Assembly: GCF_001436775.1 (NCBI RefSeq)
Contig: NZ_AYZC01000001.1
Coordinates: 1-64,000 of the forward strand
DNA length: 64,000 nucleotides
From: Lactobacillus acetotolerans DSM 20749 = JCM 3825
Lineage (GTDB): Bacteria > Bacillota > Bacilli > Lactobacillales > Lactobacillaceae
Direction of reading: 5' to 3'
Position numbers and translations under genes: made by a program. Each line of letters starts with the position of its first letter. The first letter of the stretch is position 1. Under the pieces are notes generated by a model that saw only the letters and a program-made list of their open reading frames with translations, had not been told where the DNA came from and ran no database searches. This document shows positions 45,915 through 63,612 of the stretch, piece after piece.

Positions 45915-47729
45915 TTAATCTTTAATATTAACCGTATCACCAAAAAGTTCCTTAGCCTTATCAATCACCTTAGAATCATCTTTAGGTTCTTTCTTTTCTT
46001 CCGGTTCTTCTTGAACTATATCTGATACTTTTTGCTTTTTCTTAGCCAAAAATTCTTTTTTATGGCTTTCAATAAATTCTTTCCTAACGGCTAACCAATC
46101 ATCATCCGGCACTAATACAATATCATATTTATGCTTAGCAAACTTCTCAATCTCACTGGTTAACTTATTCATTAAATCGCTATCAGAACTGGCATTTTCA
46201 AACCAGAGGGTGTATTTACACTTCATGACCACTTGATCATGACTGGCAGCGACAGGCTCAAGTACATCTAACAAGGCGCGTTCAGAAACAGCTAGGCCTG
46301 ATTGTAAGTCAGGCCAAACATTTTTAATCGTTTCAAGGTCTTTTTTAGTTGCGTTCGCAAGAACATGATAAACCTGTTTCCGATTTTGTTCATTAGTATG
46401 CTTGGTTCGCTTAACAACTTTCTTAGGTTTAACCTCGTTTTCTGCTTTTTCAGCACGAGTTTTCTTGTTTTTACTTGACTTAGCTGTATCCAAATGAAAG
46501 ACCTGATTGCTTGAATTTGAGGGTGGCTCATTAGCAACATTAGCAACTTGCTGGGTTAAATCAACCACTTGCTTCTTTAACGCGGCAATTTCAGCCTGTA
46601 AATCAGAATCAGAGTTTACAGAAGTAGTTTTAACAGTTTCTTGCTTCACTGGCTTTTCATTAGAACTCGCTTCCACTAAAAATACTTCTAGGGGTATTTG
46701 CTGCTGGTTAGTGTAGCGCAAATCATTTAACGCATTATTTGCTAAAGTAATCAAATGAAAATAGCGCGTACTAGGAATATCCTTTATTTTTTGAACAAGT
46801 TCATCACTTATAAAACCACTTTCATCACTACCACCTGCTTTACTAATCATTAGAGCATTGGTAGCCATATCAATTAATTCATCTAAAATATTCTTAGAAC
46901 TCGCGCCAGACCGCAGTTCCTTTTGTGTCTCTTTAAGAGCATTACCTGCATCTTTATTAAGCAAAGCAAGCAAGATTTTTTCAATATTTTCTTTAGCTGC
47001 AAAACCAGTTATTTGTAAGGCATCGTTATAATTAACGCTACCCTTTTCATAACTCAATAATTGATCCAGGATACTTAAGGCATCCCTCATCCCGCCATCA
47101 GCTACTTGAGCAATAACCGCAAGCGCCTTATCGTCATATTTGATTTTTTCTTGATCAAGAATATACTTCATTCTTTTTTCAAGATCAGCCTTGGAAATAC
47201 GCTTAAAGTTATAACGTTGCGTCCTCGAAATAATCGTAGCGGGGACTTTTTGCAACTCCGTGGTCGCCAAAATAAAGACAACATGCTCTGGTGGTTCCTC
47301 TAAAGTTTTAAGTAAAGCATTGAAAGCACCAATCGATAGCATGTGGACTTCATCGATAATATAAACTTTGTACTTACCCTGAGTAGGAGCATATTTTGCC
47401 TTGTCTCGGATATCACGAATTTCATCAACGCCGTTATTAGAAGCGGCATCAATTTCGATAATATCAGGCATTGAGCCATTATCAGCAGCACGACAGTTTG
47501 CACACTTATTACATGGTTCACCATCTTGCAGATTAGTACAGTTTAAGGCTTTGGCAAAAATCTTTGCACACGAAGTTTTCCCTGTACCGCGTGGACCAGC
47601 AAATAAAAAGGCATGCGAAATAGTACCGCGTTTAATAGCATTCTTTAAGGTATCTGTAATATCTTTCTGACCAACAACACTATCAAAAGTACGTGGCCGC
47701 CATTTACGATATAACGCTTGATAAGCCAT
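45915..47729 (-). CDS. dnaX: DNA polymerase III subunits gamma/tau
   Basis: The clamp-loader ATPase. The 604-aa protein has Walker A GPRGTGKTS (44-52), a four-cysteine zinc cluster (CTN to CANC), the DEVHML Walker B and TTELQKVP sensor region. A charged linker (about 365-445) and a C-terminal tau domain follow. I see no clear frameshift cassette for a gamma form. The start lies 17 bp after the terminator hairpin of the SRP RNA gene, so readthrough or a promoter within that region must drive it. Confidence 0.95.
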   Translation of the reverse strand: MAYQALYRKWRPRTFDSVVGQKDITDTLKNAIKRGTISHAFLFAGPRGTGKTSCAKIFAKALNCTNLQDGEPCNKCANCRAADNGSMPDIIEIDAASNNGVDEIRDIRDKAKYAPTQGKYKVYIIDEVHMLSIGAFNALLKTLEEPPEHVVFILATTELQKVPATIISRTQRYNFKRISKADLEKRMKYILDQEKIKYDDKALAVIAQVADGGMRDALSILDQLLSYEKGSVNYNDALQITGFAAKENIEKILLALLNKDAGNALKETQKELRSGASSKNILDELIDMATNALMISKAGGSDESGFISDELVQKIKDIPSTRYFHLITLANNALNDLRYTNQQQIPLEVFLVEASSNEKPVKQETVKTTSVNSDSDLQAEIAALKKQVVDLTQQVANVANEPPSNSSNQVFHLDTAKSSKNKKTRAEKAENEVKPKKVVKRTKHTNEQNRKQVYHVLANATKKDLETIKNVWPDLQSGLAVSERALLDVLEPVAASHDQVVMKCKYTLWFENASSDSDLMNKLTSEIEKFAKHKYDIVLVPDDDWLAVRKEFIESHKKEFLAKKKQKVSDIVQEEPEEKKEPKDDSKVIDKAKELFGDTVNIKD

Positions 47730-59810: not shown

Positions 59811-61299
59811 GCCTTTTTTGAAAAGCAGCTATTTTAGCATAACTCTTTTCTAGGTCTTGTCCTATTTCACAATAAAGCGGAAAAAGATTTTGATAAAGCT
59901 CAGCTTCCTCTTGATCCGGAAAATAAGTCTTATCTTCTTTAATTAAATTTTTTATCTTCTCCCGGTTCTCAGTAAAACCCAATTCTTGCCTTGCTAAGAG
60001 CATCGCCGCCATCGTTCCGCTCTGATCGTTTTTCATAGTTACAACCGGAATAGCAAATATGTTAGCAATCATTTGGCGAACAAAGTTACTACGGACAAAT
60101 CCACCGGTAATACGCAATTCTTTCGGCTTACCTACACTTGCAGTCAACAAATGCGCCGCAGCCCGTAAATTAAAAATAATGCCTTCTAGAACACTACGAG
60201 CCATATAAGCTTTAGTATGTTTTCGGGTTAGGCCAACAAAAGACCCGCGAGCGTTTGAATCCCAAATCGGTGCTCGTTCTCCACCAAGATAAGGATGAAA
60301 AAGTAACCCGTCACTACCGGCCGGAGCAGTTTGTGCTAAGTCTAAAAAATTTTTGGCGGTAGCCTGCGGGCCTAAAAGCATTTTCTTGGCCCATTCAAAG
60401 ATAATGCCACCATTATTCACGGGGCCCCCTAATAAATAATTATTTTTAGAAGACGGGTAGCAGAAAAAACGAGCCTTTTTATCCAGTAATACCTTTTTAC
60501 TAAACATTCTGACTGCCCCAGATGTGCCTATGTTCAGAGCAAATTCGTTTTTATCAACAGCACCAACCCCAACTGTAGATAAATAACCATCACTAGCACC
60601 AGCAATGACTTTGACATCTGCAGGCAAGTCTAACTTATGCACATACTCATCCTTCATTTTGCCAATAACAGCAGTTGGTTGAACTAATTGTGGAAAATTT
60701 CTATCTTTCAATCCAAGCTGATTTAATATAATTTGATCCCAAGCAAGTTTTTTTAAGGAAAATAAACCCGTACCAGCGGCCATTGTTATGTCTTCTTTAA
60801 ATTCTCCGGTCAAGCGATAAAGTAAATAAGTTTTAATATCTACCCATTTATCCACCTGTGTAAACAATTCTGGCTTATTTTCTTTTAACCAAGCCAACTT
60901 ATACACAGGGGCCATTGGATGAACGGGCATCCCTGTCTGCTGATAAATTTTAAGAGCCAGGCCAGATTCTTTATCCCGCAAAACAATATCCTTTGCCCGA
61001 TTATCTGCCCAAGTAATACTATTAGTTAACAGCTCACCATTTTTATCAAGTCCGATTAAGCTATGCATCTGACTTGACCAAGAAATAGCTATAACCTTAC
61101 CCTTAACCATTTTGGATAATTTAAAGATAATCGTTTGAACCGCAGCAAAAATCAAACGTGGATCTTCTTCTGCTTGGTCCTCTTTAAGTTGAATTAAAGG
61201 ATAGCCCTTCTTCAATTCAGCTTTTTTCTTACCATTTATATCATATACGGTACCCTTAGTAGCAGTCGTACCAACGTCTAGTCCGATAATATAATTCAT
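59803..61299 (-). CDS. gntK: Gluconokinase, FGGY family
   Basis: Phosphorylates gluconate to 6-phosphogluconate, entering the pentose phosphate route. The 498-aa FGGY kinase has GLDVGTTATKG (5-15), SSQMHSL near 75 and a GGERAPIWD signature. It matches gluconokinase rather than glycerol or xylulose kinase. No gluconate permease or dehydrogenase gene is adjacent. Confidence 0.9.
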   Translation of the reverse strand: MNYIIGLDVGTTATKGTVYDINGKKKAELKKGYPLIQLKEDQAEEDPRLIFAAVQTIIFKLSKMVKGKVIAISWSSQMHSLIGLDKNGELLTNSITWADNRAKDIVLRDKESGLALKIYQQTGMPVHPMAPVYKLAWLKENKPELFTQVDKWVDIKTYLLYRLTGEFKEDITMAAGTGLFSLKKLAWDQIILNQLGLKDRNFPQLVQPTAVIGKMKDEYVHKLDLPADVKVIAGASDGYLSTVGVGAVDKNEFALNIGTSGAVRMFSKKVLLDKKARFFCYPSSKNNYLLGGPVNNGGIIFEWAKKMLLGPQATAKNFLDLAQTAPAGSDGLLFHPYLGGERAPIWDSNARGSFVGLTRKHTKAYMARSVLEGIIFNLRAAAHLLTASVGKPKELRITGGFVRSNFVRQMIANIFAIPVVTMKNDQSGTMAAMLLARQELGFTENREKIKNLIKEDKTYFPDQEEAELYQNLFPLYCEIGQDLEKSYAKIAAFQKRQK

Positions 61300-61333
61300 T
61301 CGCTCATACCTATTTCTTCATTAACAAACCAAA

Positions 61334-61368
61334 ATAAAAACAGCTACCAAAAAGTAGCTGTTTTTATT
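61334..61368. terminator. Terminator between gntK and the small acidic gene
   Basis: AAAAACAGCTAC, CAAAAA loop, GTAGCTGTTTTT forms a 12-bp stem (61336-61365). T tracts occur on both strands. It ends transcription of the 75-aa gene. Confidence 0.85.
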
Positions 61369-61424
61369 AGTGGTCATAACTTTAAACGTGGCCACCATGC
61401 GTAAGACATTGTTATTAGTTAGAT

Positions 61425-61652
61425 TTACTTCTTAAGATTGTCGTTAACAAAGGCTTCGATCTTATCGTCATCGTCCTTTAAGAACGGAAGCATATCTTGC
61501 TCAGTCTTCATGGTATCTCTACCATTCTTTTCCATGAAGTAGTCCCAAAGGGCATCTCTAACTGGTACGTTTGAGTCGCTCCAGTCAAATACTTCTTTCA
61601 TATGACGGTCTAATAATGCAGTCTTAAAAATTTTACCTTTTTCTTCTGCCAT
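61425..61652 (-). CDS. Small acidic conserved hypothetical protein, 75 aa
   Basis: I do not recognise this protein. It is acidic, alpha-helical in appearance, with tryptophans at FDWSD and ALWDYFMEK and a C-terminal FLKDDDDK segment. It has no signal, cysteine or membrane segment. A strong AGGAGGT precedes the ATG and a terminator follows, so it is probably a well-expressed independent unit. It lies where yacP/sigH neighbours are rearranged relative to Bacillus. Confidence 0.75.
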
Positions 61653-61724
61653 CTTAAATTACCTCCTAAAATTATTCTACAAATTAAATTATACCGCAAA
61701 TTTAAATTTGCTTCTACAAAAAGG

Positions 61725-62300
61725 TTAATTAAACAATACTTTTCGTAATTTTTGAAGAACTCTCGACCTTGCTCTAAGTAAAGCCATACGGTCTATCTTC
61801 AGTCTTTTCACAATTTTTTCTTGATCTGCTTCTCCCAAAATAGTTAGTAAAGCACTAATTTCTAAAGCAGATAAACTATTAAGGAATTCAGTATAGGTCT
61901 CACTAATCGGCACTTCTAAACAACAACCAGTCGGTTGCTCAATACATTCGGTATTATTTTCAATCAAAGCTTCCAAAGAAATAGATTCCTTAAAAGCCCG
62001 TCTTCTATATGCCAAATCATACCTAACCAAAGTCCTGGCATGGTTATTGAGACGCTTCTTAAAATAGCTACCAAACTTTCCCCTCTTATGCGAATATACA
62101 ATCGCAGATTTATAACACACGATCATTGCATCCTGCTCCCAATCCTGATGATCATAGTGCCGTAAGAAATAATTCTTTTCCACAGCATTAATCATTGGGC
62201 GGTAGTAATAACATAACTCCTGCAAGGCATCATCATCTTCATGACAAATCCTTGCAATCAGATCAGCTTCTATTTTTTCGGTTAATTCAGATACTTTCAT
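61725..62300 (-). CDS. SigH/ComX-like alternative sigma factor
   Basis: The 191-aa protein has a sigma-70 region 2 (about 18-95), with the DWEQDAMIVCYKSAI polymerase-binding and RRRAFKESISLE segments, and a C-terminal region 4 helix-turn-helix (about 140-190). Lactobacillal homologues are called SigH or ComX and relate to competence genes. Position between rlmB and the ribosomal cluster equals sigH of Bacillus. ATG 62300 is preceded by GGGAG; the longer frame from 62411 is rejected. Confidence 0.85.
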   Translation of the reverse strand: MKVSELTEKIEADLIARICHEDDDALQELCYYYRPMINAVEKNYFLRHYDHQDWEQDAMIVCYKSAIVYSHKRGKFGSYFKKRLNNHARTLVRYDLAYRRRAFKESISLEALIENNTECIEQPTGCCLEVPISETYTEFLNSLSALEISALLTILGEADQEKIVKRLKIDRMALLRARSRVLQKLRKVLFN

Positions 62301-62318
62301 TTCTATCCCTACTCCCTT

Positions 62319-62347
62319 TACTGAGTAAGAATATAGAAGTACTGAGT
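62319..62347. repeat. Direct repeat with 21-bp period before the sigma factor gene
   Basis: On the minus strand ACTCAGTA occurs twice (62340-62347 and 62319-62326) with a 13-bp spacer, so on the same DNA face two turns apart. It lies between the promoter and the start codon of the sigma factor. Confidence 0.6.
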
Positions 62348-62382
62348 GCAAAAATAGCGAATCCATGTTCATATAAACATAA

Positions 62383-62411
62383 ATAATCTTTTGTAAGCAC
62401 TTAAATGACAA
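62383..62411 (-). promoter_or_regulatory. Probable sigma factor gene promoter
   Basis: TTGTCA (62406-62411) and GATTAT (62383-62388) are 17 bp apart on the minus strand, just after rlmB. The 5' untranslated leader would be about 75 nt. Confidence 0.5.
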
Positions 62412-62426
62412 TAAAGAAGGTATGTA

Positions 62427-63182
62427 CTATTTTAATGGATTTCTGCTATTCATCATTTGATAAAGTAAAATACCGGTCGCAACACTCGCATTTAAAGATT
62501 GAACGTGTCCAACCATTGGTAAAGTAAGGGTTTGATCCATCTGTTCTTTAAGAAGATGAGAAATCCCTTTGCCCTCATTACCAATAACAAGCACGGTTTT
62601 ACCATTGGCATTCCAACGGCGATAATCCGTACCCTTCATATCTGTGCCAAAAATCCAATAACCCCGTTTCTTCAACAATTTGGTCGTTTGAACTAGGTTA
62701 TTAACACGGGCAACCGGAACATAATCGATAGCACCAGTAGACGTTTTAGCTACTACAGACGTTAAGCCCGTAGCGTGCCTTTTAGGAATAATAATGGCAT
62801 TAACTCCCGTTGCATCAGCGGAACGCAAAATTGAGCCTAAATTATGGGGATCCTCAATTGAATCAAGCATAAGTAAAAAGGCATCTTTATCATTTTTTTC
62901 AAATTGATCAAGCAAAGCATTTAGATCAGCATATTCAAAACTAGAAATTGCTAAAACCAAGCCCTGGTGGTTTTGTCCCTGAACCAGTCGATCTAACTTA
63001 TTTTTAGGAACTGTTTGTACAACCAAACTTTTCTTTTTAGCTAAGGCATACACTTGATTAGCAAAGTTTTCTTGAATGCCATGCTGTAAAAACACCTTAT
63101 TAATCCGGTCCGCATTCTGCGTCCGCAAAAAATCTAAGCCACTATGTCTACCAAATACAAAATCCTTATCATTCGAAGTCAT
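62427..63182 (-). CDS. rlmB: 23S rRNA (guanosine2251-2'-O)-methyltransferase RlmB
   Basis: A SPOUT-class methyltransferase. The 251-aa protein has an N-terminal L30e-like substrate domain and the SPOUT motifs DSIEDPHNLGSILRSAD, VIGNEGKGIS and LNASVATGI. ATG 63182 is the likely start; GTG 63200 lies further inside mrnC. The overlap with mrnC is 14 bp. Confidence 0.93.
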   Translation of the reverse strand: MTSNDKDFVFGRHSGLDFLRTQNADRINKVFLQHGIQENFANQVYALAKKKSLVVQTVPKNKLDRLVQGQNHQGLVLAISSFEYADLNALLDQFEKNDKDAFLLMLDSIEDPHNLGSILRSADATGVNAIIIPKRHATGLTSVVAKTSTGAIDYVPVARVNNLVQTTKLLKKRGYWIFGTDMKGTDYRRWNANGKTVLVIGNEGKGISHLLKEQMDQTLTLPMVGHVQSLNASVATGILLYQMMNSRNPLK

Positions 63183-63612
63183 ATTTACTTGTGCCACCAT
63201 CTTCCACAGTCTTAATACACCACTTGCTAAGATCCGCTACGCGTTCATTTTTGCCTAATAAGTCTAGATAGCCCCAAACAGCTTCAAAACCAGTTGAAAG
63301 CTGGTAAGTCCTTAAAGTAGTATTCTTAGCCTTTGTGTGACTCTTAGAATTACGGCCACGACGAAAAATCGTTAATTCATCTTCAGTTAAACGATTTTCA
63401 TCTTGGAGCTGGGTAATTAACGCTGCTTGAGCTTTAGCAGAAACATAGTGTGTTGCCTCACGTTGCAAAACTTGTGGCCTCACAATGCCACCTTTTACCA
63501 AATGCCGCCGAATAAACACTTCATAAACAGCATCCCCTAAATAAGCTAGAGTCTGTCCACTTAAAACGTTAGGATCAAAATTTTTTTCAGTTAATTTTTT
63601 AATTTTCGTCAC
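63169..63612 (-). CDS. mrnC: Mini-ribonuclease III
   Basis: Mini-III matures 23S rRNA ends in Firmicutes. The 147-aa protein is an RNase III catalytic domain without the dsRNA-binding domain, with [17 protein letters not shown] as signature. The start is GTG at 63612, 4-5 nt after AAGGTGG, overlapping the cysS end by 14 bp. Confidence 0.93.

Follow-up and report, generated by a model that had tools for sequence, protein, structure and literature searches.

A direct repeat in Lactobacillus acetotolerans lies within the predicted, conserved SOS-like promoter of a competence sigma factor gene

The setting of a 21-bp-period direct repeat of ACTCAGTA upstream of the competence sigma gene is the main finding of this analysis: as judged by comparison across the genus Lactobacillus, the repeat lies in what appears to be a conserved, SOS-like promoter of fixed geometry. 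The window, meaning the whole stretch of 64,000 nucleotides that was analyzed from L. acetotolerans DSM 20749, contains the repeat in a 112-nt interval that we interpret as the core promoter of this gene. The palindrome in this promoter is predicted to be a LexA (SOS) operator, a reading to which we assign a probability of roughly 0.46, a little short of even. The trigger of competence in lactobacilli is unsettled in the literature consulted, and the conserved promoter element offers a testable answer, either LexA or an activator resembling ComR.

The competence sigma gene and its promoter across the genus

The product of the gene has weak matches to the sigma-70 family (18.1 bits against sigma-70 region 2 and 37.2 bits against sigma70-ECF) and to SigH models, all of them below the curated cut-offs, and a match to it is present in 70 of the 75 genomes of the genus, in keeping with its earlier description as SigH/ComX-like. 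Its named relatives come from Lactobacillus species, with distant ones from Levilactobacillus, Lactiplantibacillus, Limosilactobacillus, and Streptococcus. Its upstream neighbor, at 63200-62427 on the minus strand, resembles an rlmB-type methyltransferase gene in translation. On the other side of the sigma gene, a strong terminator-like hairpin (61368-61333, minus strand) lies between a 75-aa ORF (61652-61425) and a sugar-kinase gene. In a single species (genome G015, locus L067) the sigma gene is broken by stops and has no palindrome.

We compared 70 sigma-gene loci from 69 genomes, with G064 contributing 2 loci, G015 counted as one locus, and a weak match in G040 left out. The common plan is a palindrome RAACN4GTTY followed after 25 or 26 nt by a TATTCT −10 element, with no clear −35. 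When spacings of 20 to 30 nt were allowed, palindrome and TATTCT together matched at least 13 of 14 positions in 54 of the 70 loci, 42 at a spacing of 25 and 12 at 26, while 19 of 4,200 dinucleotide shuffles reached this score and 3 of 4,200 did so at a spacing of 25 or 26. A search of the 75 genomes for RAACN4GTTY-N25-TATTCT returned 39 sites in 36 genomes, 35 of the 39 being at the sigma gene by coordinates, and the reversed control gave 12 hits in the same 75 genomes. The exact pattern is absent from the genome of L. acetotolerans itself because of the off-consensus base in the window's palindrome, where the arrangement is GAACATGGATTC-25-TATTCT and the 2 copies of ACTCAGTA flank the −10 element (Table 1).

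Conservation extends slightly beyond the motif. Among 33 non-redundant loci of the 54, a T two bases past the box is present in 32, and an upstream TG in 25 and 23, respectively; these column counts are partly circular, the rows having been picked by the motif, and the new information is in the flanking columns alone. The stretch between box and −10 has little column conservation in these 33 loci, and thus no conserved −35. Outside the genus, 12 loci from other genera or of unplaced origin (L212-L223) were compared, and the box stands exactly 25 nt from a TANACT hexamer in nine Levilactobacillus loci and one locus from a MAG; L212 and L218 have no box at this distance.

These results change the picture given in the earlier note, where the repeat was placed in the leader behind a promoter TTGTCA-17-GATTAT at 62411-62383. 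That promoter is at chance level (6 promoter-like sites in 61200-63300, with 7.1 expected), and the repeat copies lie not behind the promoter but on both sides of its −10, with the start predicted from the −10 inside copy 2. The idea of a promoter between the repeats fared better: a −10 is indeed there, but the hexamer is TATTCT at 62333-62328, two bases from the proposed TATATT.

Table 1. Features of the sigma-gene promoter region in the window
Feature	Position	Strand	Basis or remark
SOS-like palindrome GAACATGGATTC, one base off consensus RAACN4GTTY	62359..62370	(-)	Comparison of genus loci
ACTCAGTA copy 1	62340..62347	(-)	Upstream of −10
−10 element TATTCT, 25 nt downstream of GAACATGGATTC	62328..62333	(-)	Position kept in 54/70 loci at 25 or 26 nt
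ACTCAGTA copy 2	62319..62326	(-)	Downstream of −10; covers predicted transcription start (start inferred)
Ribosome binding site GGGAGTAGGG	62307..62316	(-)	Read from sequence
Competence-type sigma factor gene (SigH/ComX-like), 191 aa, ATG at 62300	61728..62300, stop codon 61725-61727	(-)	Weak sigma matches and genus-wide match

The direct repeat around the −10 element

The direct repeat is real: both copies are exact on the minus strand (62347-62319), the pair ACTCAGTA-N13-ACTCAGTA forms part of the minus-strand sequence GAACATGGATTCGCTATTTTTGCACTCAGTACTTCTATATTCTTACTCAGTAAAGGGAGTAGGGATAGAAATG, and both units are palindromic at their core, ACT-C-AGT. The transcript would include only copy 2. 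An 8-base repeat at a period of 20 to 22 occurred in 0.74% of 5,000 mononucleotide shuffles of the 112-nt interval (P 0.007), and one at any period from 10 to 60 in 10.9% of 5,000 shuffles. Within the window, 20 of 1,141 tiles of 112 nt contain an 8-base repeat at period 20 to 22. In the homologous leaders, defined as the 112 nt preceding the match start at the 70 loci, a repeat at period 10 to 60 is found in 10; at period 20 to 22 the window's leader alone has one and the other 69 have none. The repeat is therefore mildly unusual locally and unremarkable across a 64-kb search.

Conservation in relatives and a second copy in the genome had been named beforehand as the tests that could overturn the earlier interpretation, and both came out negative. 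An exact pair of ACTCAGTA at spacing 12 to 14 is present in 1 of 75 Lactobacillus genomes, which is the window's own site, and no second exact pair at spacing 11 to 15 occurs in the L. acetotolerans genome; the zero expectation for such a pair is an unfair null, the sequence having been picked post hoc. The repeat thus appears to be specific to this species, which is represented by one genome, and it would be either incidental or a putative local operator. As an operator it might serve a lineage-specific repressor covering the −10 and the start site over two helical turns, a reading that draws on the position of the copies around the −10 and over the predicted start, the exact 21-bp period, the palindromic unit core, and the low frequency in interval shuffles. 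We consider it unlikely, since the genome has no other exact pair, the other 74 genomes of the genus have none, and the other 69 leaders lack a repeat at period 20 to 22; with a single genome for the species, no conservation is demonstrable.

A LytTR regulatory system with its own period-21 repeat

A 21-bp period had suggested control by a LytTR protein, which would bind the ACTCAGTA repeat and regulate the sigma gene. LytTR sites consist of two 9-bp units with a 12-bp gap, so the period fits, and LytTR systems control competence in Streptococcus mutans, as described in PMC6193735. The L. acetotolerans genome has one LytTR match, a 154-aa protein (L171:1249-1713, minus strand) with no receiver domain that adjoins a LiaF-TM protein; by its domain content the pair is predicted to be a LytTR regulatory system and not a LytTR response regulator. 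Its own leader contains CCTCTTAGT-N12-CCTCTTAGT, again at a 21-bp period.

An orthologous LytTR/LiaF-TM pair was found in 16 of 20 regions fetched from relatives (L251-L265 and L269), while L266, L267, and L270 gave no match and L268 a distant match without the partner. Pairs of CCACTTAG-type units at 21-bp spacing could be placed in all 16 orthologue leaders, with 14 to 24 of 26 consensus matches; because they were picked as best matches to the consensus, their mutual likeness is partly by construction. In an unbiased scan, a period-21 repeat was detected in 9 of the 16 orthologue leaders, as well as in L. acetotolerans. The repeat in these leaders is probably the autoregulatory site of the LytTR regulatory system in Lactobacillus; the LytTR-system repeats of S. 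mutans are described as serving autoregulation (PMC6193735).

The repeat at the sigma gene does not look like such a site. On a LytTR profile it scores −9.3 bits, a value equaled or exceeded at 376 of the 127,934 positions in the window, against 21.6 bits for the genome's own LytTR site; sigma leaders in relatives show no enrichment for the profile. By hand count, it agrees with CCWCTTAGT-N12-CCWCTTAGT in 13 of the 18 bases, a level reached by 14 of about 128,000 window positions, but both copies of ACTCAGTA have a C in place of the second T of the CTT core, a T that 34 of 34 listed units have. The copies also flank the −10, whereas LytTR-system repeats are described as sitting upstream of the −35 (PMC6193735), and the genome has no LytTR response regulator. 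LytTR control of the sigma gene, as proposed in the earlier note, is therefore very unlikely. Elsewhere in the window, a site at 46540-46573 scores 24 bits on the LytTR-system repeat profile; it lies inside a dnaX-like coding region and is probably due to chance.

The palindrome as a possible LexA operator

The palindrome at the sigma gene is the same as the SOS (LexA) box before lexA and the Y-family polymerase gene of the same genome. In the genus, GAACN4GTTT precedes lexA at 11 of 12 lexA loci, with no box found at the remaining one (L153). The genome encodes a LexA of 207 aa that matches TIGR00498 at 223 bits, above the cut-off, and a LexA regulon, with 13 target operons, is described as universal among the Lactobacillaceae examined in PMC3616900. 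The main text of that study contains neither “comX” nor “sigH”, and among the matches listed in titles and abstract openings, with few subscription journals covered, no LexA box or RAACN4GTTY palindrome is reported at this sigma gene in lactobacilli.

A profile was built from 13 SOS-type sites: 8 lexA entries, two before the Y-family polymerase gene, and three in L180. At 10 bits or more it detects 40 of 70 sigma leaders; 126 of 7,000 shuffles reach that score, as does 1 of 30 comGA stretches. The other 30 sigma loci fall below 10 bits, which weighs against LexA. The window's own box is weak, at 2.9 to 3.0 bits across the profile versions (P 0.089 in 100 shuffles for the 2.9-bit score), another point against. 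A 14-site version that included a site in L178 gave 39 of 70 sigma loci at 10 bits and 1.8% of shuffles. The L178 site had been a candidate parE box and was rejected, as it sits behind a neighboring gene while the intergenic stretch of parE has no box, and its rejection lowers the odds of LexA slightly.

GAACN4GTTYG occurs 9 times in the genome and its reversed control 29 times, so the box is not over-represented, which also argues against LexA. The 9 include sites at lexA, at the Y-family polymerase gene (which has another box besides), at a spot carrying three boxes, ahead of a gene for a DUF2252 protein, and behind the neighbor of parE; four have no evident SOS gene. The three-box spot (L180, about 1453-1545) lies between a gmk-like gene and an ORF of 105 aa, which has no Pfam or NCBIfam match and is probably an unnamed SOS gene. 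The box ahead of the DUF2252 protein (L174, at 1501) is the SOS-type GAACGCAGGTTTG.

The distribution of LexA among the genomes gives a partial parallel to that of the box. A full-length search found no LexA in G008, G014, and G034 (each 99% complete), G056 (85%), or G064 (68%); by domain, G008, G014, and G064 gave weak matches in other proteins of 357 to 385 aa, and G034 and G056 none. The relaxed box RAACN4RTTY is absent from 12 of 70 loci in total, comprising 4 of 4 loci of G008, G014, G034, and G056 versus 8 of 64 loci of LexA-bearing genomes. One of the 8 is the broken gene of G015, and four others (L013, L039, L052, and L060) are one mismatch off; the G056 locus also keeps a one-mismatch box. 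In G064, the incomplete genome where LexA was not found, a box is present at both loci. In a tree of the sigma protein (69 rows, the broken L067 left out), the four LexA-less rows are long-branch proteins, and G034 falls beside G036 and G025 on a weakly supported branch, although these two genomes have LexA and only their loci are without a good box. The apparent parallel between loss of LexA and loss of the box is confounded by the long branches and too few events, and is suggestive only.

LexA or a dedicated activator

The geometry of the promoter favors another explanation, in which a dedicated activator resembling ComR binds the palindrome, at a set distance ahead of the −10, and stands in for the absent −35; the similarity of the palindrome to the SOS box would then be coincidental. 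Constant spacing and a missing −35 are needless for a repressor; an activator would need both. The distance from box to −10 is 21 nt in 9 of 9 lexA loci measured, unlike the 25 or 26 nt at the sigma gene, and the conserved flanks at the sigma gene (the T past the box and the upstream TG) lie outside the SOS profile. In its sigma-gene geometry the element is, moreover, hardly found elsewhere (35 of 39 sites are at this gene), and streptococcal comX promoters are built on a similar plan. Against such an activator, the half-sites are RAAC/GTTY and not GACA/TGTC, and a box with a single target could drift, yet this one is identical in two genera and equal to the box of lexA. We regard the activator as quite possible, if on balance improbable.

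The sequence of the element points to LexA and its geometry to an activator. LexA is slightly favored here, on the ground that two genera and lexA itself share one half-site; a box shared by two genera fits a regulator with many targets. Autoregulation was also considered. In the comGA leaders (L115-L144) a motif TT[GA]CG[TA]A is found in 26 of 30 stretches, often within a sequence like TTTTTTGCGTANTTAATA, and in L. acetotolerans it takes the form TTTTTTACGTACTTAATA. Judging from these leaders, it is likely the sequence that the competence sigma factor recognizes in Lactobacillus. Self-activation by the sigma factor was rejected, the comGA leaders bearing a motif other than the sigma-gene palindrome; this difference makes simple self-activation unlikely.

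If the palindrome is a LexA operator, LexA bound there, adjoining the −35 region, would keep the sigma gene off; DNA damage would lead to RecA-driven LexA cleavage, the sigma factor would be made, and the competence genes would follow. In L. acetotolerans, the half-site base that is off consensus may mean weaker control, and the ACTCAGTA repeat around the −10 would be incidental or a local operator of some repressor. A wider version of this scheme would place the competence sigma gene in the SOS regulon throughout the Lactobacillaceae, with LexA occupying a fixed operator within a promoter that lacks a −35 and damage opening competence, one half-site having decayed in L. acetotolerans and the new −10 repeat perhaps sharing control. 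We consider this wider version possible, though less likely than not. Should the competence switch indeed carry a LexA box, this would link the SOS and competence programs in lactobacilli, and DNA damage could then switch on DNA uptake. The pneumococcus, which is without an SOS equivalent, is said to induce competence upon genotoxic stress (PMC8394987).

Comparison with known systems

LytTR regulatory systems of the HdrRM and BrsRM type share with this locus a direct repeat of 21-bp period, and this genome has a LytTR protein paired with a membrane partner; the sigma-gene repeat fits neither in its unit sequence nor in where it stands relative to the promoter. The LexA operators of Lactobacillaceae share the RAACN4GTTYG palindrome, as found here at lexA and the Y-family polymerase gene. 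They differ in their distance to the −10, and the sigma-gene box has no overlapping −35.

The ComR-box comX promoters of streptococci share the overall plan of a 12-bp palindrome with a 4-nt center, placed at a fixed distance from the −10 with no −35, before a competence sigma gene. Their box is described as a 12-bp inverted repeat GACA-N4-TGTC, with TA following 23 nt on in the published search pattern (PMC4072589), and at two loci of Streptococcus sp. sy004 we find GACATCGATGTC 24 nt from TATACT. The streptococcal −10 is thus at 23 to 24 nt and the half-sites are GACA/TGTC, whereas the Lactobacillus element has its −10 at 25 or 26 nt and half-sites RAAC/GTTY.
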